Below, one piece after another: positions 7,273-21,166 of a DNA stretch of 36,385 bases; positions within the stretch are counted from its first letter, which is position 1; the number at the start of each line of letters is the position of its first letter. This DNA comes from Fibrobacterales bacterium (lineage in GTDB: Bacteria > Fibrobacterota > Fibrobacteria > Fibrobacterales > CADBQJ01): assembly GCA_017650365.1 (NCBI GenBank), contig JAGCEZ010000086.1, positions 1-36,385 on the forward strand, written 5' to 3'. The notes beneath the pieces are model-generated. The model was given only the letters and a program-made list of their open reading frames with translations, was not told the origin of the DNA and did not search any database. The translations under genes were made by a program, and so were the position numbers.

Positions 7273-7306
7273 GGAAAGCCCGGGAGAAACTTCTCCCGGG
7301 CTTTCC
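7273..7306 (+). terminator. hairpin terminator after rpiA
   Basis: Perfect 16-bp inverted repeat, GGAAAGCCCGGGAGAA and its complement, separated by 2 nt (a real loop would open a few pairs). It starts 17 nt after the rpiA stop and is followed by GTTTCCGGTTTTCC, a weak T-rich tail. Its symmetry means it could also act on the opposite strand. Confidence 0.75.
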
Positions 7307-7360: not shown

Positions 7361-7384
7361 AAGACCGGGCCGAAGCCCGGTCTT
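7361..7384 (-). terminator. hairpin terminator after the outer-membrane-protein operon
   Basis: On the minus strand AAGACCGGGC-TTCG-GCCCGGTCTT forms a perfect 10-bp stem closed by a stable C(UUCG)G tetraloop; the stem's terminal TT runs into a further TT to give a short T tract. It lies 22 nt beyond the stop at 7407. Confidence 0.8.
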
Positions 7385-7406: not shown

Positions 7407-9545
7407 CTAGAACTGCAGCGAGAAGCTGACCGCCGGAACGTTCAGCGTCACGAGTTCGTCGCCGTCCGAGTTTTCGCCGCAGATGCGGGTGTAGGAGAGC
7501 GTCAGCGTGCCCGCTTCGGAGATCTTGCTGCGCACGCCGAACGAGAGGTTCTGCTGGATCAGGTCGACCGGGAGGCCGGCGTAGGTGCCGCTGTTCTCCA
7601 GGCGCTGGTAGCCGGCGAGCAGGGCGTGGTCGCGGAAGAACCCGAAGGTCAGGCCCGCGCTCAGCATCCCCATTTCGTAGTCGTGGACCTTCTTCAGCTC
7701 GATGTCGTTGTGGACGTAGCCGCCGTTCAGCTCGATGCCGTCCTTCCAGCCGACGAGCGCGCCGAGGCGGACCGTGGCGCCGGCGCCCCAGCGGCCGTAG
7801 GAGGTCTTGCCGGCGGGGTTGGCCTTGTCCAGGTCGTCCAGGGCGGTGAAGAGGGCCGTCGCCTCGACGGCGTTGTCGAGCCCGGCGAGGTGGAGCGCCA
7901 GGTCGAAGCCGGTGCGGTTCGGGGTCGCGTAGCCGTTCGGGAGGATCCCCTCGAAGGCGAGCGAGTTGACCTCTTCGCCGTCGCGGCGTTCCATGTAGCT
8001 GGAGACGTCGTCGGTGTAGGCGTTCTTGACGAAGGCCTGGCGGAGGTAGTTGTTGGTCCCGTTGTAGTAGTAGGCTTCCAGCGGGTTGTTCACTTCCTGC
8101 GAGTTGCGCATCGTGATCGGGTCGATCACGTAGGCCGAGTTGTAGAGCCCGTCGAGGTCGAGGATGACCGGGTTCGCGAAGCTCGCGGAGATGTTGCGGG
8201 GCTCGTAGGCGGTGGACTGGGCCATGTCGGCGACGTAGCCGGCGTCCACGCGCATCCACTTCGCGTCGAGCAGGGCGGCGAAGGGCTTCGAGCGCCAGCC
8301 GACGTTCAGGGTGACCAGGGCGGCGAACTGGCGGTAGAGCTCGTCGTAGTCGTCCAGGCGCATTTCGTAGTTGTCGGCCGTCTGCTGGCCGGGAACGCTC
8401 TTGCCCGGCAGGTTCCACTTCGCCGAGGAGTCGATCGTCGTGGGCGTGCCGTTGACCTGGCCGGCGATGGAGTCGTGGATCGCCGCGACGATCGGCGCGT
8501 AGGTGTCGCCCTGGAGATCCCAGAAGGAGAGGGCGAAGTCGGCGGTCACGCTGGCGACGAGCGAAGAGCTCTTCAGCAGCTTGGCGAGGTCGAAGCCGAC
8601 GCTCCCCTCGACCACGTAGTTCCGTTCGTAGAAGCGGCCCCAGATCGAGTCGCCGTCCACGACGACCTGGTCGCCGTAGGCCTGGAGGAGCTTCTGGACG
8701 ATCGGGTAGTTCGCCTGGATGTAGTTGTAGGCGCGGGAGCTGCGGATGCGGTCGTAGGTCGTCGAGGCGGAGGCCCCGACGGTGACGGCGTCCAGCAGCG
8801 TGCCGCTCACGCCGAACAGGCCGGCGTACTTTTCGACGTCGGAGTTGTAGTACTGGATGATGCCGGTGTTGGCCCAGGGGGTGCGCATGCGCGCGCCCAT
8901 CACGGTCACGTCGATCCTGTTCGGGTCGTTCGCGCCGGAGGTCCAATGGATGTTGGCGCCCTGGAGGTGGCGGGTGTTGTCCGCGGCGAGGCCGGCTTCG
9001 GCCATCGCCTTGGCGCGGCGTTCCGCGAAGACGGCCGGCTCGAACTCGAGGTTCATGAGGCCGGGGGTCCAGACGGTCAGCGGCGAGTGCTTGAAGCGGA
9101 AGTCGCCCAGTTCGTAGCTCGCGTGGCCGCCCAGGATCTTCCCTTCCAGGTTCATCCAGCGCAGGACGAGCGGGTTGATCCCTTCGTCGTAGTAGTTGTT
9201 CCAGTCCTGGTGGACGCGGAGTTCGACCAGGGCGCGGAACTCCTCGCTCGCGCGGAACTCGAAGTCGAGGTCGGCCTGGGTGTAGCCGTCGTATTCGCGG
9301 TTCCCGGCCTTGTCGTCGACCATGTCGCCATCCGCCGTGGCGGAGGAGATTTTGCTGTCGAACTGGCCGTAGATGCTGAAGCCGCGCTTGGTCGCCTCGA
9401 TCGAGTCGAGGCGGTCGGAAAGCGCCTGCTGCTGCGCGGCGATCTCCTGGGCGGCGGCGGGCGCGGCCAGGCAGAGGGCGGAGAGGAGGGCCAGGGACGT
9501 GCGCTTCATCGCGGATTCCTTGATGCTCGTGTGTTTCGTGTTCAT
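7407..9545 (-). CDS. exported outer-membrane beta-barrel-type protein, paralogue 3
   Basis: Family not recognised. 712 residues with a Sec signal peptide (long basic N-terminus, hydrophobic core, APAAAQ cleavage region at about residue 33), then a short coiled-coil-like stretch (QQQALSDRLDSIEATK), then alternating polar/aromatic strands to the end. The final residues VSFSLQF end in Phe with alternating hydrophobics, the outer-membrane barrel (BAM) signal. It shares ordered motifs with its upstream neighbour: QDW..Y, LRW....GK, GDF..K.SPLT.W.P, FA..R..AMA, LQGA and YATPNRTGFDL. AAGGAGGG 6 nt before the ATG at 9545 fixes the start. It is last gene of a four-gene operon, 12 nt after the previous stop. 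A porin-like role is inference only. Confidence 0.78.
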   Translation of the reverse strand: MNTKHTSIKESAMKRTSLALLSALCLAAPAAAQEIAAQQQALSDRLDSIEATKRGFSIYGQFDSKISSATADGDMVDDKAGNREYDGYTQADLDFEFRASEEFRALVELRVHQDWNNYYDEGINPLVLRWMNLEGKILGGHASYELGDFRFKHSPLTVWTPGLMNLEFEPAVFAERRAKAMAEAGLAADNTRHLQGANIHWTSGANDPNRIDVTVMGARMRTPWANTGIIQYYNSDVEKYAGLFGVSGTLLDAVTVGASASTTYDRIRSSRAYNYIQANYPIVQKLLQAYGDQVVVDGDSIWGRFYERNYVVEGSVGFDLAKLLKSSSLVASVTADFALSFWDLQGDTYAPIVAAIHDSIAGQVNGTPTTIDSSAKWNLPGKSVPGQQTADNYEMRLDDYDELYRQFAALVTLNVGWRSKPFAALLDAKWMRVDAGYVADMAQSTAYEPRNISASFANPVILDLDGLYNSAYVIDPITMRNSQEVNNPLEAYYYNGTNNYLRQAFVKNAYTDDVSSYMERRDGEEVNSLAFEGILPNGYATPNRTGFDLALHLAGLDNAVEATALFTALDDLDKANPAGKTSYGRWGAGATVRLGALVGWKDGIELNGGYVHNDIELKKVHDYEMGMLSAGLTFGFFRDHALLAGYQRLENSGTYAGLPVDLIQQNLSFGVRSKISEAGTLTLSYTRICGENSDGDELVTLNVPAVSFSLQF

Positions 9546-9557
9546 CTTCGTCCCTCC

Positions 9558-11723
9558 TTAGAATTCCGCCCGGACCTTGACCTGGGTGAGGAACTGCGAG
9601 AAGTCTTCGGAAGAGAGGGCTCCGGTCGCGTCGGCGACGTCGGCGTCGACGAAGACCTGGCCGACGCTCCACTGCGCGTAGGAGTTGTTCTTCAGGCGGT
9701 ACTGGACGCCGGCGCGCCACTGCTGCTGCGTCTTTTCGCCGGGAGCCTTGTCCCACGAGGCGTCGATGCGCTGGTAGCCGCCGAGGAGGAAGAACTTGTC
9801 GACGAATTCCCACTTCAGGCCGGCGTTGACCATCGCCGAGGTGTAGGTGTCGGCGCCGCCGATCAGGTAGTCGTAGTCGGCGGTGGTGAGGGTGTAGCCG
9901 CCGGAGATCTGCAGCGGGCGCTTCCAGCCGGCGAACCCGGCGACGTCGACCATCGCGCCGCCGCCGAACTTCGCGAACTCGGCGGTCGAGGCGAAGCCCG
10001 CTTCCGCTTCCTTTTCGGCGAGCATCGAGAGGACGCCTTCCACGCCGAGCTTGCCGTTCAGCGCGCCGGAGAGCTTCAGGTCGAAGCCGGTGCGGTTCGG
10101 GGTGGCGTAGCCGAAGGGCAGCAGCAGCTGGAGGTCGGGGTCGGGGACGAAGCCGCTCGTGCCGATCGAGTTGGTGTAGGCGTTCTGCATGTAGGGCGCC
10201 TGCTGGTAGGGCACGTTGCGCAGGGGCGAGGCCTTGGGGCGGTACTGGTACATCGCGTCGAACGCGCTGTAGAGCGGGGCGGCGACGCCGGCGGCCGAGA
10301 GGTCGTTTTCGACGTTCATGATCCGCTCCGCGCGGAACGTGGGCGACTGCGCCATCAGGTTGACGTAGGAGGAGTCGACGTCGACGAAGCGGCCGGTGAC
10401 GACGGCGCTCATCGCGTCGGTCTTCCAGCCGGCGTTCAGTTCGAGGTAGATCGCCTGCCCTTCGAGCGCGTCGGGCGCTTCGGCGCCGAGCACGTCGTAG
10501 GAGGCGTTCACGACGGAGTCGGCGAAGCTGCCGGTGCCGGTCACGGAGACGACCTCCATCTGGAGGGAGGAGGGGTCGACGCGGAAGCCGTTCGCCATCG
10601 CGCGCGCTTCGGCGGGGCTGACGTTCTCGACGTAGACCTTGTGGCCCGGTTCGGCGGGGGGAAGCCAGTTGTAGCTCAGGCCGGACATCGCGAATTCGCC
10701 CGTCGCGTCGGCGATGAGGTTCTTGAGCCCGAGGAAGCCGGCGACGTCGACGCCGCCGCGGACGGAGACCACCTTGTTGTCGGTCGCCCAGAGGTTGTCG
10801 AGATACCAGTTCTGGCCGTTGAGCGAATAGCCGCTGTCGGCGCGGGCCGGGTCGTCGTTCTTGCGCCAGGTGTTCTCGTCCTCGAACGTCCAGACGAAGG
10901 AGCCGCCCACGTAGGCGTTCTTCGCGACCATCAGCTCGGCGTTGGCGCCGAAGGACCACTGTTCGAGGTCGGACTGGATCCCGAACTCGGAGCCGTGCTT
11001 GGCGACCATGACCGTCGGGTGCTTGTTCGCGTCGAGCGTGGCGCTGGCGCCGTCGAGGAATTCCGCGCGGCGGACGCGGCTGGCGTAGCCGTCCAGGCGG
11101 AGTTCCAGCAGTTCGCCGAAGGGGAGGACGGAGTTGACCTTCGCGCCCTGCAGCACGCGGTCGTTGCCGCCGACGAACTCGTCGGCCATCGCCTCTTCGC
11201 GGGCCTGCGCGAAGATCGGGGCCTCCATCAGCACTTCGAGCTCGGGGGCCCACAGCGTCAGGGGGCTCCACTTCTCCTTGAAGTCGCCGACGGCGTAGGC
11301 GACCTTGCCGAACGCCTTGCCGTGGATCTGCGCCCAGCGCAGGTGGATCGGACGGCTGCGGTTCGAGAAGTAGGTCTGCCAGTCCTGCTGGAAGCGGATC
11401 ACGACGTCGGCGCCGAGTTCGCTCCAGGGGCGGGCGCCGATGCGCAGGTCGACCAGCGTGGACTGTTCCTTGTCGATCGTCTCGCGGTCGGGGTTCGAGA
11501 GCGAGCCGTCCACTTCGGACTTGAGGTACTCCCCTTCCGCGACCATGCCGAACTCGAGTCCGGCGCGGGCGACCAGGGCGTCCCACCTGCTCTGCAGCGT
11601 TTTCTGGTTTTCGATCTCCGCCGAGAGCGGAGAGGCGGCCTGCGCGGCGGCGAAGAGACCCGCGGCGCAGAGGATGGAGGCGCTCTTCTTCAGCATGGCG
11701 TTTCCAATGTGTTGAGTCTTCAT
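9558..11723 (-). CDS. exported outer-membrane beta-barrel-type protein, paralogue 2
   Basis: Family not recognised. 721 residues. The signal peptide ends about AAAQA-ASPLS (residue 30), followed by a short helical stretch (AEIENQKTLQSRWDALVARAG) and a long beta-rich body rich in Trp, Tyr and Asp. The C-terminus TQVKVRAEF has the Phe-terminated barrel signature. Shared with paralogue 3: GDFKEKWSPLTLWAPEL, FAQAREEAMADE, RVLQGA, NAYT and FGYATPNRTGFDLKL. The start at 11723 is supported by AAAGGAGG 6 nt upstream; a second ATG at 11696 (MLKKSAS) would also leave a signal peptide but has no good ribosome site. It lies 12 nt after paralogue 1. Confidence 0.78.
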   Translation of the reverse strand: MKTQHIGNAMLKKSASILCAAGLFAAAQAASPLSAEIENQKTLQSRWDALVARAGLEFGMVAEGEYLKSEVDGSLSNPDRETIDKEQSTLVDLRIGARPWSELGADVVIRFQQDWQTYFSNRSRPIHLRWAQIHGKAFGKVAYAVGDFKEKWSPLTLWAPELEVLMEAPIFAQAREEAMADEFVGGNDRVLQGAKVNSVLPFGELLELRLDGYASRVRRAEFLDGASATLDANKHPTVMVAKHGSEFGIQSDLEQWSFGANAELMVAKNAYVGGSFVWTFEDENTWRKNDDPARADSGYSLNGQNWYLDNLWATDNKVVSVRGGVDVAGFLGLKNLIADATGEFAMSGLSYNWLPPAEPGHKVYVENVSPAEARAMANGFRVDPSSLQMEVVSVTGTGSFADSVVNASYDVLGAEAPDALEGQAIYLELNAGWKTDAMSAVVTGRFVDVDSSYVNLMAQSPTFRAERIMNVENDLSAAGVAAPLYSAFDAMYQYRPKASPLRNVPYQQAPYMQNAYTNSIGTSGFVPDPDLQLLLPFGYATPNRTGFDLKLSGALNGKLGVEGVLSMLAEKEAEAGFASTAEFAKFGGGAMVDVAGFAGWKRPLQISGGYTLTTADYDYLIGGADTYTSAMVNAGLKWEFVDKFFLLGGYQRIDASWDKAPGEKTQQQWRAGVQYRLKNNSYAQWSVGQVFVDADVADATGALSSEDFSQFLTQVKVRAEF

Positions 11724-11735
11724 GTGCCGCCTCCT

Positions 11736-14591
11736 TTAGAACCAGACCTTGGTTTCGAGGAAGAGGACGCCCATCGTCACGTCGTTGTCGATGATCTTCG
11801 ACTCGTGGGCTTTCTTCATGGTGTAGGCGTCGCTGAGCTTGGCGTATTCGGCCGTGGTCAGCGGCGTCTTCTCGGACTTGTCCATCAGCGTCTTGTAGGT
11901 CGCCTTGGCGGTCTTGTACTGGTCGTCCGAGCGGAGATCGTCGCGGACGTCCTCCATCGTCATGTCGATGTGCTTGGACCACTTGTAGCGGACGTGCAGG
12001 GAGGCGCGCTTGGAGAAGTCCCAGTCGAAGCCGGCGCCGAAGGCGAACTGCAGGTACCGCAGGTCGCTCTTCTCGATGTCGCGTTTGAAGTTCTCCACGC
12101 CCACGACGGCGCCGTCGATCATGCGCGGTCCGAGGAGGACGTCGGGCTGTTCGGGCACGCCGGAGTTGCGGATGGTGTTGCGCAGGGCGTTGTCGGCGTT
12201 GTAGTAGTCCAGGCCGGCCATCCCGATGATCGCGAAGCTCTTGCCCAGCCCGACCACGGGTTCGGTCATCAGCAGGACCTCGTTCATGACGGGGGCGACG
12301 GGGTTTTCGTCTTCCTTGATGCGGGAGATCTGGTTGTATTCGCCGTAGACGTTCCAGAAGAGCCAGGGGGTCAGGCGGCGGCCCCAGTCGAGGCTCAGGC
12401 TGAGGGAGAGCTTGCGGCTCTTCTGCAGCTCGGGCGCCTCGTAGACGGAGTCGACGACGGCCATCGAGTCGAGGTTCGCGTAGCGGGCGGTGTCGACGCG
12501 GACCAGGACGGGGTCGTTGTCGTAGACCGCGAACTCTTCCCAGAGCTCGTAGTCGTCGCCGAAGAGGCCGCCGTCCTGCTGCATGTTCATGTGGGGGGCG
12601 TCGTCGACGACGCCGACCCGGCCGTTGTAGGACTCGGTGTTGTAGGGGCGGCCTTCGTCCCAATGGCGGTCGGGTTCGGTCTTCGACCAGAAGGTGGAGC
12701 CCTTCCACCAGTCGCGGCCGAGCAGCTTGTGCTGGAACGCGATCACGTCGTTGCCCTTTTCGAGCTGGGCGTGCGCGCCGAGGCCGATGCGGAGGTAGCC
12801 GTTGGAGAGCTTGGGAATCCAGGTGAAGGTCGCGCCGAAGAGGTTGTTCTGCAGCACGCTGTTCCCCACGCCGAGCTTCATGCGGTCCTTCTTGATCGGA
12901 AGGGTGTTCTGCGTGAGCGAGTAGGGCGAGTAGAAGTCGGCGCCCGCGACCAGGGCCTCCAGCTGCCAGTTGTGGGTCGGATTCTGCTTGTAGAGCTTCA
13001 GGTAGTAGGCGCCGGAGAAGTTGGTCGCCTCCTCGTCCGACGGGCTGTCGACGTCGTAGACGCGGTAGCCGGAGTTGGAGCCGACGTCTTCGTAGTACCT
13101 GTTGAGGCCCGCGACGACGTTGTTGTCGAGATTCCAGGCGGCCTGCCAGAGGTCGGCGTTGAAGTAGCGGGCGACGGAGTCGGCGTCGGTGCCCTGCGGG
13201 TTGGAGGGGTCGAAGGAGTAGACGCTCATGATGCGCGGATAGTATTCGCCGTCCGTTTCGCCGTCGCGGTGCGCGAGGAAGGCGAACTGCTCGTCGCTCG
13301 CGGCGATCGGGTCGGCGGTCAGCGAGGGGAGCGTCGTCGTCGGGTTGTTCGCGTTCCACTCGGGGGCGTAGTAGTACTTGTCGCCGGCGGAGGAGCGCTT
13401 TTGGCTCCAGGTGCGCTTGTTCTCGTAGGAGAAGGCCGCGTCGGATTCCCAGTAGAGGGTGGGAGTCAGCATGCCGACGGAGCTGAAGCTGAAGACGCGC
13501 GGCTCGAAGACCGCCGGGTCTTCGTCGGACGAGAACTGGTGGGCCCAGCTCTTGTTGCCCATGCCGGCGTATTCGGCCGAGTTGGGCTGCTGGAGGAAGT
13601 CGTTCACGATGTCGTCGTGGTAGTTCGAGGCCAGGAAGCCGAACGCGGCGTTGGCGCTGCCGAAGACGTTGCCCCTTTCCACGAACCCGGCGAAGACCAT
13701 CCCGGGATGGCTGACGGAGGTGATGGCCTCGGCGTCGCCGTAGTGCGACATCATCGTCGCGCGGGGCATGGTGGCGCGGGAGTTGATCGGCTCGGCGACC
13801 AGGAACTGCCCCTTCAGGCCGAAGGGCATCTGGTAGATGTCGGCGTGGACGCCGCCGAAGGTGCGACGCGGCCAGGTGGAGGCCCCGCCGTAGTCCTGGC
13901 GGTTGTAGGACTTGCCCTGGTAGTAGGCGTCGACGCCCTGCTCGGGCTCGTAGGACTCGTAGTTCCAGGCGAACTTGTGGCGCGGGTCGCGGCGCCAGAC
14001 CAGCATCGGGCTCATCTGGATCCACTGCGCGCCGCCCAGCGTGATCTCCGCGGAGACCAAGGAGGAGCGGACGTTGGCGCTGATCAGCATCTCCTCGAAG
14101 ATGCCGACCGCCTCGCGCTCGGTGCTGATGACGTCGCGGTAGCGCGTGTAGTCCTGCTCGATCGAGGTGACGGAAGTCGCCTTGTCGGTGGTCAGCATGC
14201 CGGTTTCGGAGGCGTACTTGTTCACGTAGGTGCCGTGGTAGTCGGCGCCGAACGTGAGGGCCGCCTTCAGCGTGAAGAAGGGGTTGGGGTTCAGCGTCAG
14301 CCAGACGTTCGCCTGGTTCTGCAGGATCGTCCGGTGCTTGAAGGACGTCATGTAGGCGGGCGCTTCGTAGAAGTTGTCGTCGTACATGCGCGCGATGACG
14401 TTCCCGTGGGCGCCGATCGGGCTGGGCGAGACGCCCATCTGGGCGCTCTGCGCGCGCTGCGCGACGCTGTCCAGCGCGGCCTGCTTGGCCGCGAGGTCTT
14501 CGGAAATCTGGTCGCTCGTGACGGCTTCGGCGAAGAGGGCCGAGGTCATCAGGGCCGCGAAGGCCAGGCTGTGGTGCAGGATCTTGCTCAT
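11736..14591 (-). CDS. large exported outer-membrane beta-barrel-type protein, paralogue 1
   Basis: Family not recognised. 951 residues from the ATG at 14591, chosen because MSKILHHSLAFAALMTSALFAEA is a good Sec signal peptide and GGAGG lies 9 nt upstream. After it comes a coiled-coil-like segment (SEDLAAKQAALDSVAQRAQ), then a long Tyr/Trp/Asp-rich beta body. The C-terminus VLFLETKVWF ends in Phe, as in outer-membrane barrels. It is larger and more diverged than the next two genes but keeps the SPM-LVW block (WIQMSPMLVWRRDP) where they have SPLTVW/SPLTLW. Likely an outer-membrane channel or assembly platform, by inference. Second gene of the operon, 17 nt after the exported jelly-roll-like gene. 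Confidence 0.75.
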   Translation of the reverse strand: MSKILHHSLAFAALMTSALFAEAVTSDQISEDLAAKQAALDSVAQRAQSAQMGVSPSPIGAHGNVIARMYDDNFYEAPAYMTSFKHRTILQNQANVWLTLNPNPFFTLKAALTFGADYHGTYVNKYASETGMLTTDKATSVTSIEQDYTRYRDVISTEREAVGIFEEMLISANVRSSLVSAEITLGGAQWIQMSPMLVWRRDPRHKFAWNYESYEPEQGVDAYYQGKSYNRQDYGGASTWPRRTFGGVHADIYQMPFGLKGQFLVAEPINSRATMPRATMMSHYGDAEAITSVSHPGMVFAGFVERGNVFGSANAAFGFLASNYHDDIVNDFLQQPNSAEYAGMGNKSWAHQFSSDEDPAVFEPRVFSFSSVGMLTPTLYWESDAAFSYENKRTWSQKRSSAGDKYYYAPEWNANNPTTTLPSLTADPIAASDEQFAFLAHRDGETDGEYYPRIMSVYSFDPSNPQGTDADSVARYFNADLWQAAWNLDNNVVAGLNRYYEDVGSNSGYRVYDVDSPSDEEATNFSGAYYLKLYKQNPTHNWQLEALVAGADFYSPYSLTQNTLPIKKDRMKLGVGNSVLQNNLFGATFTWIPKLSNGYLRIGLGAHAQLEKGNDVIAFQHKLLGRDWWKGSTFWSKTEPDRHWDEGRPYNTESYNGRVGVVDDAPHMNMQQDGGLFGDDYELWEEFAVYDNDPVLVRVDTARYANLDSMAVVDSVYEAPELQKSRKLSLSLSLDWGRRLTPWLFWNVYGEYNQISRIKEDENPVAPVMNEVLLMTEPVVGLGKSFAIIGMAGLDYYNADNALRNTIRNSGVPEQPDVLLGPRMIDGAVVGVENFKRDIEKSDLRYLQFAFGAGFDWDFSKRASLHVRYKWSKHIDMTMEDVRDDLRSDDQYKTAKATYKTLMDKSEKTPLTTAEYAKLSDAYTMKKAHESKIIDNDVTMGVLFLETKVWF

Positions 14592-14608
14592 CTGTTCACG
14601 CCTCCGGC

Positions 14609-15358
14609 TCAAAAGCCTTCGTTCTTGAAGGGATAACCGTCGCCGCCGCCGCCGAGGCCCTTCGGGACCTTCTTGACGATGCGGATGTCGTCCACGTAGA
14701 CCTTGAACGAGGTGAAGCGGTTCTTGTCGATGTCCATGCCGAGGCAGCGGATGCCCTTCCAGTTGAACGGGGCGCTCACGCGCTTGTTGAGGGCGTCGGA
14801 CCAGTAGGAACCCACGCCGCCGAAGTCGCGGAGCGGAACCGTGAGCTCGAACCACTCGTCCTTGCTCATGATGCCGTAGGAGCGGGTGCTGGCCGGGGGC
14901 CAGGCCTGCTGCAGGTGGCCGTCGGAGTTCAGGCCGTCGTCCATCAGCGAGAAGGAGAAGATCTCGCCGCCCTTGGTGCCGTGGACCGCCATCGTCAGCC
15001 CGCCTTCCTCGAAGTAGGGCGAGAGGTCGACGGCGCCGCTCAGGCAGACCTGCGCGCCGGACCAGGCGTTGGCGGTGAGAATCATCTCGACCGAGTAGTC
15101 GCCCGTGTGGGCCATCGCGTCGGTGACCTGGGGCTTGGGCGTCTGGGGCCAGGGATAGACGTACATCGCGCCGCCCCGGGCGATCCCCTCTCCCACGAAC
15201 TCCAGCACGACGTTGTCGTCGGTCGGCTTCTGGGGAATGGGTTTGAGGACTTCGGCGCTGCGGTTCCGAACCTGGTCGAAGCCCGCGAAGCTCGTTCCGA
15301 TGGCGGCGATCAGCCCCACCAGCAAGGCCGTTTTCGGCCAATGACCCTTAATCGCCAT
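14609..15358 (-). CDS. exported protein with a CBM11/galactose-binding-like fold, function unknown
   Basis: 249 residues. A short basic start and hydrophobic helix (about residues 9-25, KTALLVGLIAAIGTSFAG) look like a Sec signal or anchor. The mature part has features of jelly-roll carbohydrate-binding domains of the CBM11/CIA30 type: GDYSVEMILTANAWSGAQVCL, FSFSLMDDG, EWFELTVPLRDFGG and FTSFKVYVDDIRIVK near the end. It closes with a Gly-rich tail (GLGGGGDGYPFKNEGF). Resemblance is by pattern only. ATG at 15358 has AAGGA 6 nt upstream. It heads the operon with three outer-membrane proteins, so it may be a surface or periplasmic partner of those barrels. Ligand unknown. Confidence 0.7.
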   Translation of the reverse strand: MAIKGHWPKTALLVGLIAAIGTSFAGFDQVRNRSAEVLKPIPQKPTDDNVVLEFVGEGIARGGAMYVYPWPQTPKPQVTDAMAHTGDYSVEMILTANAWSGAQVCLSGAVDLSPYFEEGGLTMAVHGTKGGEIFSFSLMDDGLNSDGHLQQAWPPASTRSYGIMSKDEWFELTVPLRDFGGVGSYWSDALNKRVSAPFNWKGIRCLGMDIDKNRFTSFKVYVDDIRIVKKVPKGLGGGGDGYPFKNEGF

Positions 15359-15405: not shown

Positions 15406-15413
15406 CGAATATA
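15406..15413 (-). promoter_or_regulatory. -7 promoter element TATATTCG (export operon)
   Basis: TAnnTT match on the minus strand in an AT-rich island (15405-15430) that stands out from its GC-rich surroundings. It lies 47 nt before the ATG at 15358, giving a leader of roughly 40 nt that holds an AAGGA ribosome site. Confidence 0.55.
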
Positions 15414-15494
15414 GCACAAAAACCTTTATTTCCAACGAGAGGGAAAGGAAAACAATCGCAACACTCCCCTTTCCGGCCAAGTGGGCGAAAAGGG

Positions 15495-17327
15495 TCAGAA
15501 ATCGCCGTTTTCGAACTCTTTCTGGGCCTCTTCGAGCTCCTGGCTGGCCAGAAGCCACTTTTCGAAGGCGTCGTCGCGGGCGTTCTCCGCCTCGGAGAGC
15601 TTTTTGGAGAGCTCGACGATCCGCTGGCCGTCGCCGGCGGATGAGCTGGCCTCCAGTTCGGCGTGGAGCCCCGAGACCTCGGCCTCCAGCTTCGCGATCC
15701 TCTCTTCGACCGCGGAAAGCCGCTTTTTGAGGGGATTGAGCCGTTTCGAGCGCTCCTCGACCAGCTTGGCGCGGAGACGGCGGTCCTCCTTCCGGCTCCC
15801 CTTCTTCTCGTCGGCGTCGCCGGAGACCGCCATCCTGGCCGGGCCCCACCCCTCGCGCTGGAGGAACTCCGCGTACTCCTGCTCGCGGAGCTGCGCGTTC
15901 CCGTCCTTGAAGACGACCAGCTTGTCGGCCAGGCGGTCGACGAACTCCTCGGAGTGGCTGACCAGGACCACGTTCCCGCCGAAGGCCTCGAGCGCCTGGA
16001 GGAGCGCCTCGCTCGACTCGAGGTCGAGGTGGTGGGTCGGCTCGTCGAGCAGCAGGGTCTGGCACGGGGCGGCGATGATCCGCCCCAGGAGCACGCGGCT
16101 CTTCTCGCCGCCCGAAAGCACGCGGACGGGCTTGAGCGCGTCGTCGCCGCTGAACATCATCGCGCCGCAGATGCCGCGGACCGCGGTCCGCCCCAGGTCG
16201 GGCGCGGCGTTCGACACGGCCCCCTCCACGGTCCACTCCGGGGGCAGGCGGTCGACGTTCGTCTGCCCGAAGACGCCGAACGCGGCGTCCGGGTGCCGCC
16301 AGACGCTCCCCTCCTCGGGCTCGAGCTCGCCGGCGAGCACGCGCAGGAGCGTGGACTTCCCGCGCCCGTTGGGGCCGACGACCGCGAGCCGTTCGCCGGG
16401 ATGCAGCTCGAACGAGAGGTTCCGGAAGAGCCACGGCCCGCCCGGGAAGCGGAACCCGAGGTCCCTGGCGCGCAGGACGGTCTTGCCGTCGAACGGGCTC
16501 TCGCGGAACTCGAACGAGAGGGTCTCCAGCCGGCTCAGGTGTTCGAGCGAGCCCTGGTGCTCCAGCTGCTTGATCCGGGACTGCACCGCGCGCGCCTTCG
16601 TCGCCTGGTAGCGGAAGCGCTCGATGAAGCGCTCGGCCTGCCGGCGCGCGCGCTCCTCGTTCGCGACGCGGCGTTCGTGGGTCTCCTCCTCCTCCTCGAT
16701 CCGCGAGTACCAGTGGTTTGTGTCGCCCGGGAACATCTTCGCGCGGCCGCGGTGGATCCCGAGGACGTGGGTGCAGACGCCGTCCATGAAGCCGCGGTCG
16801 TGGGTGATGAGGATCAGGCCGCGCCGCCAGGAGCGCAGGTAGCGCTTGAGCCAGGCCATCGCCACGATGTCGAGGTAGTTGGTCGGCTCGTCGAGCAGCA
16901 GGAGGTCGGGCTCGGAGAGGAGGGCGCAGGCCAGCGTCAGCCGGATCTGCTGTCCGCCGGAGAGGATGTTCGGGTCGGAGTTCCGCTCCTTCTCGCCCAG
17001 GCCGAGGCCCGAGAGGATCTCCTCGGCGCGGTGCTCGGGGACCCAGCCCTCCTCGGCCGCGAGGAACGAGCAGGCCTCCTCCATCGCCGTGGCATGCGAG
17101 AACTTCAGCTTCTGCTTGAGGTAGCCGATCTTCAGCCCCGAGGCCCTGGCGATCGTCCCGCGGTCGACCGCCTCCTCGCCGACGATCATCTTCAGGAGCG
17201 TGGACTTGCCGCAGCCGTTGCGCCCGACAAGCCCGATCCGCTGCCCCTCGTCCACCGAGAAGGAGACGTCCTCGAAGAGCGTCCGGGCGCCGAAGGACTT
17301 CGAGAGGCCGCTGGCCTGGAGGAGCAT
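15495..17327 (-). CDS. ABC-F family ATP-binding protein (duplicated ABC ATPase, no membrane domain)
   Basis: Soluble twin-ATPase of the ABC-F family, which acts on ribosomes (translation factors, ribosome protection) rather than in transport. 610 residues. First cassette: Walker A GRNGCGKST (about 35-43), signature LSGGQQIRLTLA, Walker B LLLLDEPTNYLD. The interdomain linker is helical and charged (EEEEETHERRVANEERARRQAERFIERFRYQ). Second cassette: GPNGRGKST, LSGGEKSRVLLG, LLLDEPTHHLD. A C-terminal coiled coil (about residues 530-610) resembles Uup-type tails. ATG at 17327 overlaps the preceding TGA as TGATG. Subfamily and ribosomal role cannot be fixed by eye. Confidence 0.92.
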   Translation of the reverse strand: MLLQASGLSKSFGARTLFEDVSFSVDEGQRIGLVGRNGCGKSTLLKMIVGEEAVDRGTIARASGLKIGYLKQKLKFSHATAMEEACSFLAAEEGWVPEHRAEEILSGLGLGEKERNSDPNILSGGQQIRLTLACALLSEPDLLLLDEPTNYLDIVAMAWLKRYLRSWRRGLILITHDRGFMDGVCTHVLGIHRGRAKMFPGDTNHWYSRIEEEEETHERRVANEERARRQAERFIERFRYQATKARAVQSRIKQLEHQGSLEHLSRLETLSFEFRESPFDGKTVLRARDLGFRFPGGPWLFRNLSFELHPGERLAVVGPNGRGKSTLLRVLAGELEPEEGSVWRHPDAAFGVFGQTNVDRLPPEWTVEGAVSNAAPDLGRTAVRGICGAMMFSGDDALKPVRVLSGGEKSRVLLGRIIAAPCQTLLLDEPTHHLDLESSEALLQALEAFGGNVVLVSHSEEFVDRLADKLVVFKDGNAQLREQEYAEFLQREGWGPARMAVSGDADEKKGSRKEDRRLRAKLVEERSKRLNPLKKRLSAVEERIAKLEAEVSGLHAELEASSSAGDGQRIVELSKKLSEAENARDDAFEKWLLASQELEEAQKEFENGDF

Positions 17328-18331
17328 CAGCGCCCCTCCCCTTCTTTTTCGCGCATATGCCTTTCGTCGGCCGCGGGCCGCGTCTGCGCGGTCAGGAAGG
17401 CGATGCCGCCTGGGAGCGAGACGAGGATCACGACGAGCACCGAGAGCTCGGTCAGCACGAACGACTCCACCGGGGAGAAGGCGACCAGCGCGAAGAGCGA
17501 CTGCGCCAGGGCCTCGCGCGGGCCGAAGCCGCCGACGGAGATCGGGAGCGCGCTGACCACGCCGAGCAGCGGGACGAAGTAGAGGAAGGCGACGAACGGC
17601 GCCTCCAGCCCGATGGCCACGGCGAGCATCCAGTGGATCAGCACTCGCGTGAACTGGATGAACCCGGAGAGCGTGAGCAGGCCGGCCCAGAGCTTCGGGT
17701 CGCGGTAGAGGTGGAAGCGGCGGCGGATCGAATCGAACGCCTCCGCGGGCTTCCGCAGGCGGAGCGCTTCGAGCGCGCGGACCGCGAGCGCGCCCAGGCG
17801 GCGCGAGAAGACGGCGGCGAAGAAGAGGCACATCGCCGCGAAGATCCAGACGATCGGCATCAGCGCGGGGCTCGACGCGGGCGTCGTCCGCACCATCCAG
17901 AAGCCCGCGGCCATGCCGATCACGTCGAGCATGAAGAGCCCGAAGACGCGGTCGAAGAGCGTCGCGGTGAAACCGCCGGCGAGGTCCTTCGCGCCGCGGT
18001 AGACGTCGTAGACCTTCTTCGCGTCGCCGCCGGCGTTCCCGGGCATGAACGTGTTGAAGAAGAGCCCGACGAAGTAGCACTTCTGCGTTTCGTAGAGCGA
18101 AAGCCCGATGCCCTGGCGCCGGAGGAGGATCCACCACTGGAGGCCCGAGAGGGCCATCGAGACCGCGGTGACGGCCAGCGCGCCGAGGAGCCACAGGGCG
18201 TCCGAGTCGCGGACCATCTCGACGAGCGCGTCCTGTTCGCGCGCCAGCTCGTCGGCCATGCTGAGCGCGACCCAGCCGATGCCCCCGAAGGTGACCGCGA
18301 GCTTCAGGGCGAAGACCAGGATCCGCTTCAC
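17327..18331 (-). CDS. lysylphosphatidylglycerol synthase/flippase-like (UPF0104) membrane protein
   Basis: Polytopic inner-membrane protein of the LPG synthase transmembrane/flippase-like superfamily, 334 residues with about eight hydrophobic helices. Family hallmarks: the loop FNTFMPGNAGGDAKKVYDVYR (about residues 95-115) and, later, the PISVGGFGPREALAQSLF block (about 265-282). There is no aminoacyl-transferase domain, so it is not an MprF enzyme; such proteins are thought to move lipids or lipid-linked products. GTG at 18331 overlaps the stop of the glycosyltransferase (GTGA), and its own stop overlaps the ABC-F start. The neighbouring glycosyltransferase suggests a glycolipid or lipid-linked sugar substrate (inference). 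Confidence 0.88.
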   Translation of the reverse strand: MKRILVFALKLAVTFGGIGWVALSMADELAREQDALVEMVRDSDALWLLGALAVTAVSMALSGLQWWILLRRQGIGLSLYETQKCYFVGLFFNTFMPGNAGGDAKKVYDVYRGAKDLAGGFTATLFDRVFGLFMLDVIGMAAGFWMVRTTPASSPALMPIVWIFAAMCLFFAAVFSRRLGALAVRALEALRLRKPAEAFDSIRRRFHLYRDPKLWAGLLTLSGFIQFTRVLIHWMLAVAIGLEAPFVAFLYFVPLLGVVSALPISVGGFGPREALAQSLFALVAFSPVESFVLTELSVLVVILVSLPGGIAFLTAQTRPAADERHMREKEGEGR

Positions 18332-19494
18332 CGCGCGCCTCCCGCGATCCGCTCCAGGATCTCGCGCGTCGCGTCGGCGGCGCCCTCCCACGTGAAGCGC
18401 TCCGCCCAGAGGAGCGCCGCCTCCTCGAGGCGCTTCCGCAGCCCGGGATCCGAAAGGAGCCGCTCCTGCGCCGCGGCCAGCGCCTCGACGTTCCCGGGCT
18501 CGTAGAGCAGCCCGGTCTCGCCGTCGCGGACGCTGTCGCGCAGCCCGGGCGAATCGGCGGCGACGACGGTCCTGCCGCAGGCGTTCGCCTCGACCACGGT
18601 GAGGCCCCAGCCCTCCTTGCGCGAAGTCTGCAGCACGAACTCCGCGCCGCGCAGGAGGGCGAGCTTCTCCTCCTGCGGCACGAACCCGAGGAAATCGACG
18701 TCGCCGCCGATTCCGAGCGCGCGGGCCCGCTTTTCGGCCTCGGGGCGGAAGGGGCCGCTCCCCGCGACCTTCAGCCGGAGACCCGGGAAGCGGCCGCGGA
18801 CGAGGGCGAAGCTTTCGAGCGCGTCGAGCACGCCCTTGTAGCGCTGGAGCCGCCCGAGCCAGAGGACGAAGGGGGCGGCTCCGGCGCGGGCGGCCTCGGG
18901 TTCCGCGGGCGAGTAGAACCCGTGGTCCAGGCCGTTGTGGACCACGGCGATCCGGTCGCGCGGGATCCCCATGCCGGCGAGCTCGCCGGCGGTCGAGGCG
19001 CTCACCACGCAGAACTCCGCCTTCCGGTAGAAGAGCCGGATCGTCTGCTCGGCGGCCCAGACCGCGAAGGCCACGGGGAAGGACGCCTCGCGGAAGATCG
19101 ACCCGCGCCAGAGGTGGTGCATCTGCACCAGGACCGGGACCGTGGAGAGGACGGGCGCGAAATAGGGCAGCTTGTTGAAGTCCTCCACGACCATGTCCGC
19201 GCCCGTTTCGCGGATCCATCTCCGGAGGTTCTTCATGCAGAGGAGCTCGTAGGTCGCGTCGCTTCCCAGGCGATGCACCTCGATGCCGTCCACGACCTCG
19301 TCCTCCGGGCAGCCCGGCCAGGCGCAGGAGAAGAGGACGACCCGCGTCCCCGTCCGGACCAGCCGGGAGTAGATTTCGTGCAGGTGCACTTCGGCCCCGC
19401 CGGCCCGCGGATGGAGCCGGTCCCGCCAGTTGAGGATGAGCACGCACCGGGGCCCGCGTGGAGCGCCATGCGGGGCGGTTTCTTCGGGAATCAT
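18328..19494 (-). CDS. glycosyltransferase family 4 (GT-B fold)
   Basis: Probable sugar transferase to a lipid or polysaccharide acceptor, 388 residues. The N-terminal acceptor domain has LHPRAGGAEVHLHEIYSRLVRTG; the donor domain has FVLWLGRLQRYKGVLDALES, then FLGFVPQEEKLALLRGAEF and the E-x7-E-type block SRKEGWGLTVVEANACG with DSPGLRDSVRDGETGLLYEPGN. These are typical of GT4. I chose ATG 19494; an in-frame TTG at 19503 lies inside the promoter element. TATCCTTG ends 6 nt before the ATG and no ribosome site is seen, so the transcript may be leaderless. First gene of the operon with the flippase-like and ABC-F genes. Confidence 0.92.
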   Translation of the reverse strand: MIPEETAPHGAPRGPRCVLILNWRDRLHPRAGGAEVHLHEIYSRLVRTGTRVVLFSCAWPGCPEDEVVDGIEVHRLGSDATYELLCMKNLRRWIRETGADMVVEDFNKLPYFAPVLSTVPVLVQMHHLWRGSIFREASFPVAFAVWAAEQTIRLFYRKAEFCVVSASTAGELAGMGIPRDRIAVVHNGLDHGFYSPAEPEAARAGAAPFVLWLGRLQRYKGVLDALESFALVRGRFPGLRLKVAGSGPFRPEAEKRARALGIGGDVDFLGFVPQEEKLALLRGAEFVLQTSRKEGWGLTVVEANACGRTVVAADSPGLRDSVRDGETGLLYEPGNVEALAAAQERLLSDPGLRKRLEEAALLWAERFTWEGAADATREILERIAGGAR

Positions 19495-19500
19495 CGCCCG

Positions 19501-19508
19501 CAAGGATA
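19501..19508 (-). promoter_or_regulatory. -7 promoter element TATCCTTG (glycosyltransferase operon)
   Basis: Seven of eight positions fit TAnnTTTG on the minus strand; it is 6 nt before the ATG at 19494. Confidence 0.45.
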
Positions 19509-19590
19509 GAAAAATCCCCGAAAAGGGGCCGTTTTGGCCGTTTACGGCGCCAAAAAGAAAATAAATGAACCGGGAACTTGCCTAAAATCG

Positions 19591-19598
19591 TATATTTG
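19591..19598 (+). promoter_or_regulatory. -7 promoter element TATATTTG (sigma factor)
   Basis: Exact TAnnTTTG match, 20 nt before the GTG start, in an AT-rich patch (19545-19600). Confidence 0.65.
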
Positions 19599-19606
19599 GG
19601 CGCGAG

Positions 19607-19613
19607 AAAGGAG
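19607..19613 (+). promoter_or_regulatory. ribosome binding site that selects a GTG start
   Basis: AAAGGAG lies 5 nt before GTG 19619. An overlapping ATG at 19617 is in another frame, so the GTG must be used for the sigma factor. Confidence 0.7.
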
Positions 19614-19618
19614 CGCAT

Positions 19619-20518
19619 GTGCATTTCGATTCCAACGACGACACCCTGCGGCGGTACCTGGACGACATCCGCCAGACCGCTCCCCTGAATCGAATCAGCG
19701 AGCAGACCTACTTCCAGCTCATCCAGGAAGCGCGCGAGATCAAGGCGAACCCCAACGCGACCAAAAAGGAGCTGGCCGACGCCGAGGCCAAGCACAAGCA
19801 CGGCTGCGAGGCGCTGATCAGCGCCAACATGCGGTTCGTCCTGAAGGTGGCGATCCAGTACCGCCACTGCCCGATTCCCCTGCCCGACCTCGTCTCCGAG
19901 GGGGCGATGGGGCTCGTCCGCGCCATCGAGAGCTTCGACGCCTCCCGCGGCCTGAAGTTCATCTCCTACGCCGTCTGGTGGATCAAGGCCTACATCACCC
20001 GCGCCATCAACGAAAACGGCAGCCTGATCCGCCTCCCCGCCAACCAGCACCTCCGCGTCCGCAAGGCGCTGAAGGAGCAGGCGCGCGGCAAGGAGATCGA
20101 CGAGGACATCCGCGAGCTGATCCAGCTGGGCGAACGGGGCATCTCCTTCGACTCCCCGCTGAAGAGCGACACCAAGACCACCTACTCCGAGGTCCTCGCC
20201 GACACCAAGGCGAGCAACCCCGAGGCCGAGGCCGAGTCGAACAACTTCGGCATCCTGACGCGCGACCTCCTGGCCGAGCTCCCCGAGCGCGAGGCCAAGG
20301 TGATCGCCGGCATCTACGGCATCAACCAGGAGTCCCCGCAGACCCTGCGCGAAGTGGGCGAATCGATGGGCATCTCCCACGAGCGCGTCCGCCAGCTGCG
20401 CGACCAGGCGCTGCGACGCATCCGCAAGCTGCACACCGTCGAATCGATCAACGAGCAGACCGGCGGCCTGCTCGGCGGCTCCGCGCGCGCGGCCGAAGCC
20501 GCGCAGAACGCGAACTGA
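19619..20518 (+). CDS. RNA polymerase sigma factor, RpoD/sigma-70 family (compact, no region 1.1)
   Basis: Sigma-70 type factor, 299 residues. Region 1.2 is seen at DTLRRYLDDIRQTAPLNR (about residues 8-25). Region 2 is strong: LISANMRFVLKVAIQYR, DLVSEGAMGLVRAIESFD, GLKFISYAVWWIKAYITRAI. Region 3 follows (RLPANQHLRVRKALKEQ), then region 4 with LPEREAKVIAGIYGI and the helix-turn-helix TLREVGESMGISHERVRQLRDQALRRIRKL. Region 1.1 and the large non-conserved insert of proteobacterial RpoD are absent, as in Bacteroidetes-type primary sigmas. Together with the TAnnTTTG elements in this window it is a good candidate for the housekeeping or a group 2 sigma; which one I cannot tell. algH follows 36 nt downstream. 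Confidence 0.93.
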   Translation: MHFDSNDDTLRRYLDDIRQTAPLNRISEQTYFQLIQEAREIKANPNATKKELADAEAKHKHGCEALISANMRFVLKVAIQYRHCPIPLPDLVSEGAMGLVRAIESFDASRGLKFISYAVWWIKAYITRAINENGSLIRLPANQHLRVRKALKEQARGKEIDEDIRELIQLGERGISFDSPLKSDTKTTYSEVLADTKASNPEAEAESNNFGILTRDLLAELPEREAKVIAGIYGINQESPQTLREVGESMGISHERVRQLRDQALRRIRKLHTVESINEQTGGLLGGSARAAEAAQNAN

Positions 20519-20554
20519 CCTCTCCCGCGCCGAAGCGGACGCAGGACCGGAACG

Positions 20555-21166
20555 ATGGAAGAACGCGACATCCGAAACGGCGCACCCGCCCTGGGCGCGG
20601 GCGTCTTCCTGCTCGCCAGGCCCGTCCTCGACGGCTCCTGGTTCGAGAAGAAGATCGTCCTGCTGATGCAGCACGGGAACGAGGAGGGCGCGCTGGGCTT
20701 CGTCGTCAACGCCGTCGTCGCGATGCCGGTCAACGAGGTGATTCCGGGCGCCGCGCGCGACCCCGGCAGGCGCCGCCCCGTCTTCCTCGGCGGACCGGTC
20801 GAGCCGGGCAGCGTCCGCATCCTCGAGTTCTCGCGCACGGAGGGAAGCCCCGCGGACCGCGTCCGGGAGCTCGCCCAGGCCGAGAGCCCCGAGGAGCTGG
20901 CCGAAACGCTGGTCCGCAGGCTCGACAGCCCCTCCGTCGGCCTCTTCATGGGCTACAGCGGCTGGGCGCCCGGACAGCTGGAGCGCGAAATCGCCGACGG
21001 CTGCTGGGAGGTCTATTCCGCGGACCCCGCCGCCGTCCTCGCCGACCGCGAAAAGCTGAAGGGCGTCACGCCCGACCAGTTCAAGGCGAGCTACCCTCCC
21101 GCCGTCGTCCATGTCGTCGAGCCCTCCCCGCGCGAAGGGGACTTCGGGGGCGACGGTGGGCTATAA
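20555..21166 (+). CDS. YqgE/AlgH family protein
   Basis: Member of the YqgE/AlgH family (DUF179), whose biochemical function is not settled. 203 residues. Hallmarks: GVFLLARPVLDGSWFEKKIVLLMQH near the N-terminus, GALGFVVN, LGGPVEPGS, and GYSGWAPGQLEREIADGCW (about residues 130-148). The end is slightly extended and Gly/Asp-rich (REGDFGGDGGL) where it overlaps the next gene by 11 bp. It lies 36 nt after the sigma-factor stop and probably in the same transcript. The name does not imply alginate regulation here. Confidence 0.92.
   Translation: MEERDIRNGAPALGAGVFLLARPVLDGSWFEKKIVLLMQHGNEEGALGFVVNAVVAMPVNEVIPGAARDPGRRRPVFLGGPVEPGSVRILEFSRTEGSPADRVRELAQAESPEELAETLVRRLDSPSVGLFMGYSGWAPGQLEREIADGCWEVYSADPAAVLADREKLKGVTPDQFKASYPPAVVHVVEPSPREGDFGGDGGL

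Follow-up and report, generated by a model that had tools for sequence, protein, structure and literature searches.

A conserved gene set of Fibrobacterota, encoding a CBM30 protein and three predicted outer-membrane barrels, is a probable system for binding and importing beta-1,4-glycans

What do four genes for exported proteins, set one behind the other on the minus strand of a Fibrobacterales contig, do together? A first-pass annotation of the 36,385-nucleotide stretch that we analysed (the window) read them as an export operon for one jelly-roll-like protein and three large outer-membrane barrel paralogues, recognised no family among them, and suggested that they form a complex at the cell surface, perhaps to bind or take up glycans in a fibre- or polymer-using bacterium. 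The open reading frames of the window bear out the gene plan: four genes, here called A to D, with the lengths claimed and with gaps of 17 nt (A-B), 12 nt (B-C) and 12 nt (C-D), each product carrying an N-terminal signal peptide and ending in Phe (Table 1).

Table 1. Positions in the window of the four genes, their candidate control elements and two loops of protein C
Feature	Position	Strand	Basis or remark
Gene A: secreted CBM30 protein, 249 aa	14609..15358	-	Pfam CBM30 PF21582 match
Gene B: outer-membrane barrel protein (predicted), 951 aa	11736..14591	-	AlphaFold; no family above cut-off
Gene C: outer-membrane barrel protein (predicted), 721 aa	9558..11723	-	AlphaFold, 22 strands, no plug
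Gene D: outer-membrane barrel protein (predicted), 712 aa	7407..9545	-	Paralogy with C
Promoter-like site TTGGAA-16-TATATT, upstream of A	15408..15435	-	Sigma-70-like scan; -10 conserved in congener
UUCG-loop hairpin, terminator-like, after D	7361..7384	-	Fold
Second hairpin, 15 bp, between D and convergent rpiA-like gene	7273..7306	-	Fold
C residues 151-188, conserved, presumably extracellular loop (SPLTL...EAPIFAQ)	11160..11273	-	Column identity 0.76
C residues 450-543, 94-residue conserved, presumably extracellular loop	10095..10376	-	Column identity 0.79; mostly low pLDDT

The control elements claimed for the operon fared unevenly. A promoter scan of the region returned two sigma-70-like sites against 0.5 in shuffles, and the promoter-like site upstream of A keeps its -10 hexamer, TATATT, in G041, the one congener against which conservation of promoter and palindrome was judged. 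The operator-like palindrome, ATGAGA-N5-TCTCAT, is present, but we dropped it as an operator because its right arm is broken in that congener. The UUCG-loop hairpin put forward as a terminator does fold, as does a second hairpin beyond it; the former is missing from the list produced by the terminator scan because its T tract is short. The flanks of the operon are unrelated genes (an rpiA-like gene and an ABC-F ATPase gene), none of them glycan-related, and the functional link is therefore borrowed from relatives. On the same strand, upstream of the operon, 15495-17450 codes for an ATPase of ABC-F type and 17327-21112 for a protein whose membrane region is that of a lysylphosphatidylglycerol synthase.

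A belongs to a family after all. It matches the Pfam profile CBM30 (PF21582) with an E-value of 6.4e-9 and 36.4 bits, above the curated cut-off of 27, in an alignment that leaves out the N-terminal half of the domain, and the profile of A in turn picks out 1wmx/2c24, CBM30 sequences of C. thermocellum with solved structures, at 9e-12. Judged by these profile matches, A is a CBM30 protein; the earlier description of it as exported holds, while its supposed lack of a family does not. Its signal region has no lipobox cysteine, and no membrane anchor is visible. Measured against the congener, dN/dS is 0.22 for A and 0.47 for C.

For B, C and D the first-pass annotation was right: none matches a Pfam or NCBIfam family above its curated cut-off. 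Their relatives have weak matches at most, commonest to generic barrel families, and C itself has a weak, sub-threshold match to OMP_b-brl. Nor did the profile of any characterised porin family match them, and the profiles of B and C have no matches among PDB sequences. Structure prediction, which had been proposed as a check, returned barrels for both B and C, each modelled singly. The AlphaFold model of C, made from a 60-row alignment, has 22 long strands, counted from the DSSP listing, after an N-terminal helix; that of B has about 22-24. Both models are of moderate confidence (pLDDT 70 for C and 65 for B), with the longest loops at low confidence. The coiled-coil-like stretch noted earlier behind the signal peptide appears in the models as a helix (residues 36-52 in C, 26-50 in B). 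In a Foldseek search, the models found only generic large barrels, with TM-scores by query of 0.33 or less. B, C and D are predicted to lie in the outer membrane. If the N-terminus of C is taken as periplasmic, its short turns face the periplasm and its long loops the outside. The two most conserved long loops of C are residues 151-188 and 450-543, with mean column identities of 0.76 and 0.79, against 0.61 over residues 55-720.

The barrels also lack the marks of known sugar transporters. No Pfam match to a TonB plug, such as SusC-type proteins carry among their N-terminal domains, was found in the members scanned, and in the model of C a helix alone precedes strand 1 (residue 55). There is no SusD profile match among the four proteins. 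Maltoporin, OprD and other sugar porins have 16-18 strands; C has 22 predicted strands and no match to them above cut-off. It differs likewise from the PopA superfamily, defined by 16 strands, a plug and oligomerisation loop 8, and PopA is absent from the best 50 Foldseek matches. Within the set, C and D are plainly paralogous, with an hhalign probability of 100, and a single branch of the tree, with support 100/99, separates them. The claim of three paralogues stands for this pair; B is only weakly related to both (82 with C, 95 with D), and we rejected it as a full paralogue.

We searched for relatives of the operon within Fibrobacterota. Of 168 genomes, 148 have a match to A and 146 a match to the C/D family. 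The three barrels represent unassigned families that extend across the entire phylum. Using the Fibrobacteraceae alignment of A, we drew 80 Fibrobacteraceae-type loci from named genomes. At 71 of them A-B-C-D is complete and in order; at the remaining nine the contig ends within the set, or ORFs are broken or merged. B follows A at 79 of the 80, and a GH18-family gene is found at 71 and a GH5 gene at 67. The gene order is not limited to close relatives but is kept far beyond them. A second arrangement occurs at 20 loci, from six other families and a second system in the family f4: behind B-C comes a gene for a Cel51A-type protein of the make-up CBM30-CBM11-GH51, full at 18 loci and short or interrupted at the other 2. 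At all 20, C is accompanied by B and a CBM30 protein adjoins the barrels; several of the Cel51A-type proteins have a lipobox-like signal. Oligopeptide-type ABC permease and ATPase genes are present at 8-10 of these loci, a family-5 solute-binding protein at 7 and GH94, whose substrate NCBIfam does not resolve, at 6. For example, L159, L153, L162, L052 and others have B-C-Cel51A beside an ABC transporter and GH94, apparently a complete uptake pathway.

This association bears on the idea that B, C and D are porins of a general or structural kind, for instance envelope tethers acting through the N-terminal helix, with the CBM gene an incidental neighbour. The generic barrels matched by Foldseek include OmpM1 and SlpA, which are envelope attachment proteins, and the flanks in the window hold no glycan genes. 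Yet incidental neighbourhood sits poorly with a CBM30 protein next to the barrels at all but one of 80 loci and at every one of 20 others. In addition, the most conserved long loops of C are the presumed outer ones, whereas the outer loops of porins are usually the variable part. We regard this explanation as distinctly unlikely.

The explanation that we prefer, and consider probable, is that A-B-C-D is an outer-membrane system, not of the SusCD type, that binds and imports fragments of a beta-1,4-glycan (cellulose or chitin). A, once secreted, would retain glycan chains at the surface of the cell, and the large plug-free barrels B, C and D would accept chains or oligosaccharides at their long conserved outer loops and pass them into the periplasm. 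Where B-C occurs in other lineages, the oligopeptide-type ABC transporter of the inner membrane and the GH94 phosphorylase that are often encoded beside it would complete the uptake pathway. The surface glycan-binding or uptake role suggested at the outset is thus supported. The genes themselves, the CBM30 match, the predicted barrels, the paralogy of C with D, the conserved order and the glycan-related neighbours are what the analysis shows; that the barrels sit in the outer membrane, that there is a physical complex, that it transports and does not just adhere, and which glycan it takes are what we infer. Traffic in the opposite direction, in which the barrels would export A itself or some polymer of the cell surface and would import no glycan, seems very improbable. 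AlgE and usher barrels do occur among the Foldseek matches, and A has no visible anchor, but those matches fall within the same low TM range, the neighbours that could be identified are degradative or import genes, and no synthase or export gene is found among those scanned.

Fibrobacter is a main cellulose digester in herbivore guts, including the rumen. Its loci have the order GH5 (divergent), A, B, C, D, a 224-aa gene, GH18 and GH9, which connects them to genes tabulated for F. succinogenes S85: GH5 Fisuc_1523/FSU_2005, CBM30 Fisuc_1525/FSU_2007, GH18 Fisuc_1530/FSU_2012 and GH9 Fisuc_1531/FSU_2013 (PMC3079729). The GH5 protein is a measured cellulase, the GH18 protein is reported to bind cellulose, and the GH9 protein has been seen in the periplasm (PMC3079729, PMC4668043, PMC6851124). 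By family and order, the stand-alone CBM30 protein FSU_2007 is the likely counterpart of A, and FSU_2012 (CBP1/CBP-9) corresponds to the GH18-family gene downstream of D. The S85 tags between these two exactly fit B, C, D and the 224-aa gene, and B-D would accordingly be FSU_2008-2010, an assignment drawn from tag numbering, not from S85 sequence. Among open-licence papers we found no mention of FSU_2008-2010. FSU_2007, in contrast, is already known, having been catalogued and seen by proteomics: it was detected in the cell envelope on all substrates (PMC4619616) and assigned to the extracellular medium (PMC4668043). We counted its presence in the medium as well as the envelope against a tight surface complex. 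FSU_2007 and FSU_2012 were catalogued singly, and the role of CBM-only proteins was called unclear. The cellodextrin transporters of Fibrobacter are reported as not delineated (PMC4668043) and its transport mechanism as unknown (PMC6851124); uptake of cellulose products across its outer membrane now gains a testable gene set, FSU_2007 with, by inference, FSU_2008-2010.

The GH18-family neighbour is an unusual one. At all 71 Fibrobacteraceae loci that have the gene, the catalytic Glu of the DxxDxDxE motif is replaced (by Q in 53, G in 9, I in 4, V in 2, L in 2 and D in 1). This loss and the report that the S85 protein binds cellulose suggest that the neighbour serves in binding and is no longer active as a chitinase, its inactivity being read from the motif. 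Chitin as the Fibrobacteraceae substrate, proposed on account of the adjoining GH18 gene, is weakened on the same two grounds. In loci L057-L136, the ORF downstream of D resembles a chitinase turned binding protein. In f4, where the A-B-C-D form is found with GH20 and GH18, the GH18 genes keep the catalytic Glu.

A degenerate GH18 protein whose S85 counterpart binds cellulose is also what might be expected if the operon served adhesion alone, with A and the barrels forming a surface platform that fixes cells to insoluble polysaccharide and transports nothing. A is a CBM protein, and Fibrobacter requires contact with cellulose (PMC6204037). Such a platform, however, explains neither the three large barrels nor why, in other families, B-C is linked to genes for an ABC transporter and a GH94 phosphorylase, and we consider adhesion without transport unlikely.

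If glycan capture and import is the correct reading, the substrate may differ between organisms. The window genome has 17 GH18 matches and one match each to GH20, GH94, GH5 and GH9, and at least 7 of the GH18 loci keep the catalytic motif. On this evidence chitin is a serious candidate in the window organism, and may be the substrate of its operon, as cellulose is a serious candidate in Fibrobacter. So many GH18 matches in a 2.08-Mb assembly point to a lifestyle based on chitin or another GlcNAc polymer. We rejected Cel51A as a component in this genome, where the only match to it is A itself. More tentatively, and with the odds somewhat against it, plug-free barrels of about 22 strands and a CBM30 protein could constitute a class of importer, so far seen solely in Fibrobacterota (the only phylum searched), that carries beta-1,4-glycan into the periplasm. 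It would have diversified into one form for cellulose, accompanied by Cel51A, an ABC transporter and GH94, and another, A-B-C-D, tied to chitin enzymes; in Fibrobacteraceae the GH18 partner would have lost catalysis and turned to cellulose binding.

Among the closest known systems, SusCD-type polysaccharide utilisation loci of Bacteroidota likewise combine a surface glycan-binding protein with a large outer-membrane barrel, and, as among the relatives of our operon, have glycoside hydrolases alongside; the proposed job is the same. The operon would thus work like a SusCD-type locus yet falls outside that class: it has no TonB plug, SusC domain or SusD, its barrels match no family, and A, in the window, is not a lipoprotein. 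In Cytophaga hutchinsonii, the cluster chu_1276-chu_1280, required for cellulose use, groups two outer-membrane proteins, a CBM-like cellulose-binding protein and an endoglucanase (PMC12016534), a likeness that we draw from the published description and not from sequence. It differs in that CHU_1279 is a two-domain SGBP-B-like protein outside known CBM families, whereas A is CBM30, and in that CHU_1276 is reported to resemble TonB-dependent transporters (PMC12016534), whereas the operon barrels are plug-free. The PopA superfamily, also of outer-membrane proteins, has the Fibrobacter members FSU_2404 and FSU_0230, but these have 16 strands, against 22 predicted for C, and are encoded elsewhere (PMC12228718).

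One genome, G158, has both arrangements (L038, L143): A-B-C-D is accompanied there by GH20 and GH18, and B-C-Cel51A by a large protein of GH9 type. In the tree, the C proteins of the f4 A-B-C-D form group with that of the window with support 90/68, below the starred level. Proteins of about 1645 aa are encoded downstream of Cel51A-type genes at L147:12831-17777, L143:1624-6558 and L144:3670-8607; the one at L147 was scanned and contains GH9 with fibronectin-type and other domains.
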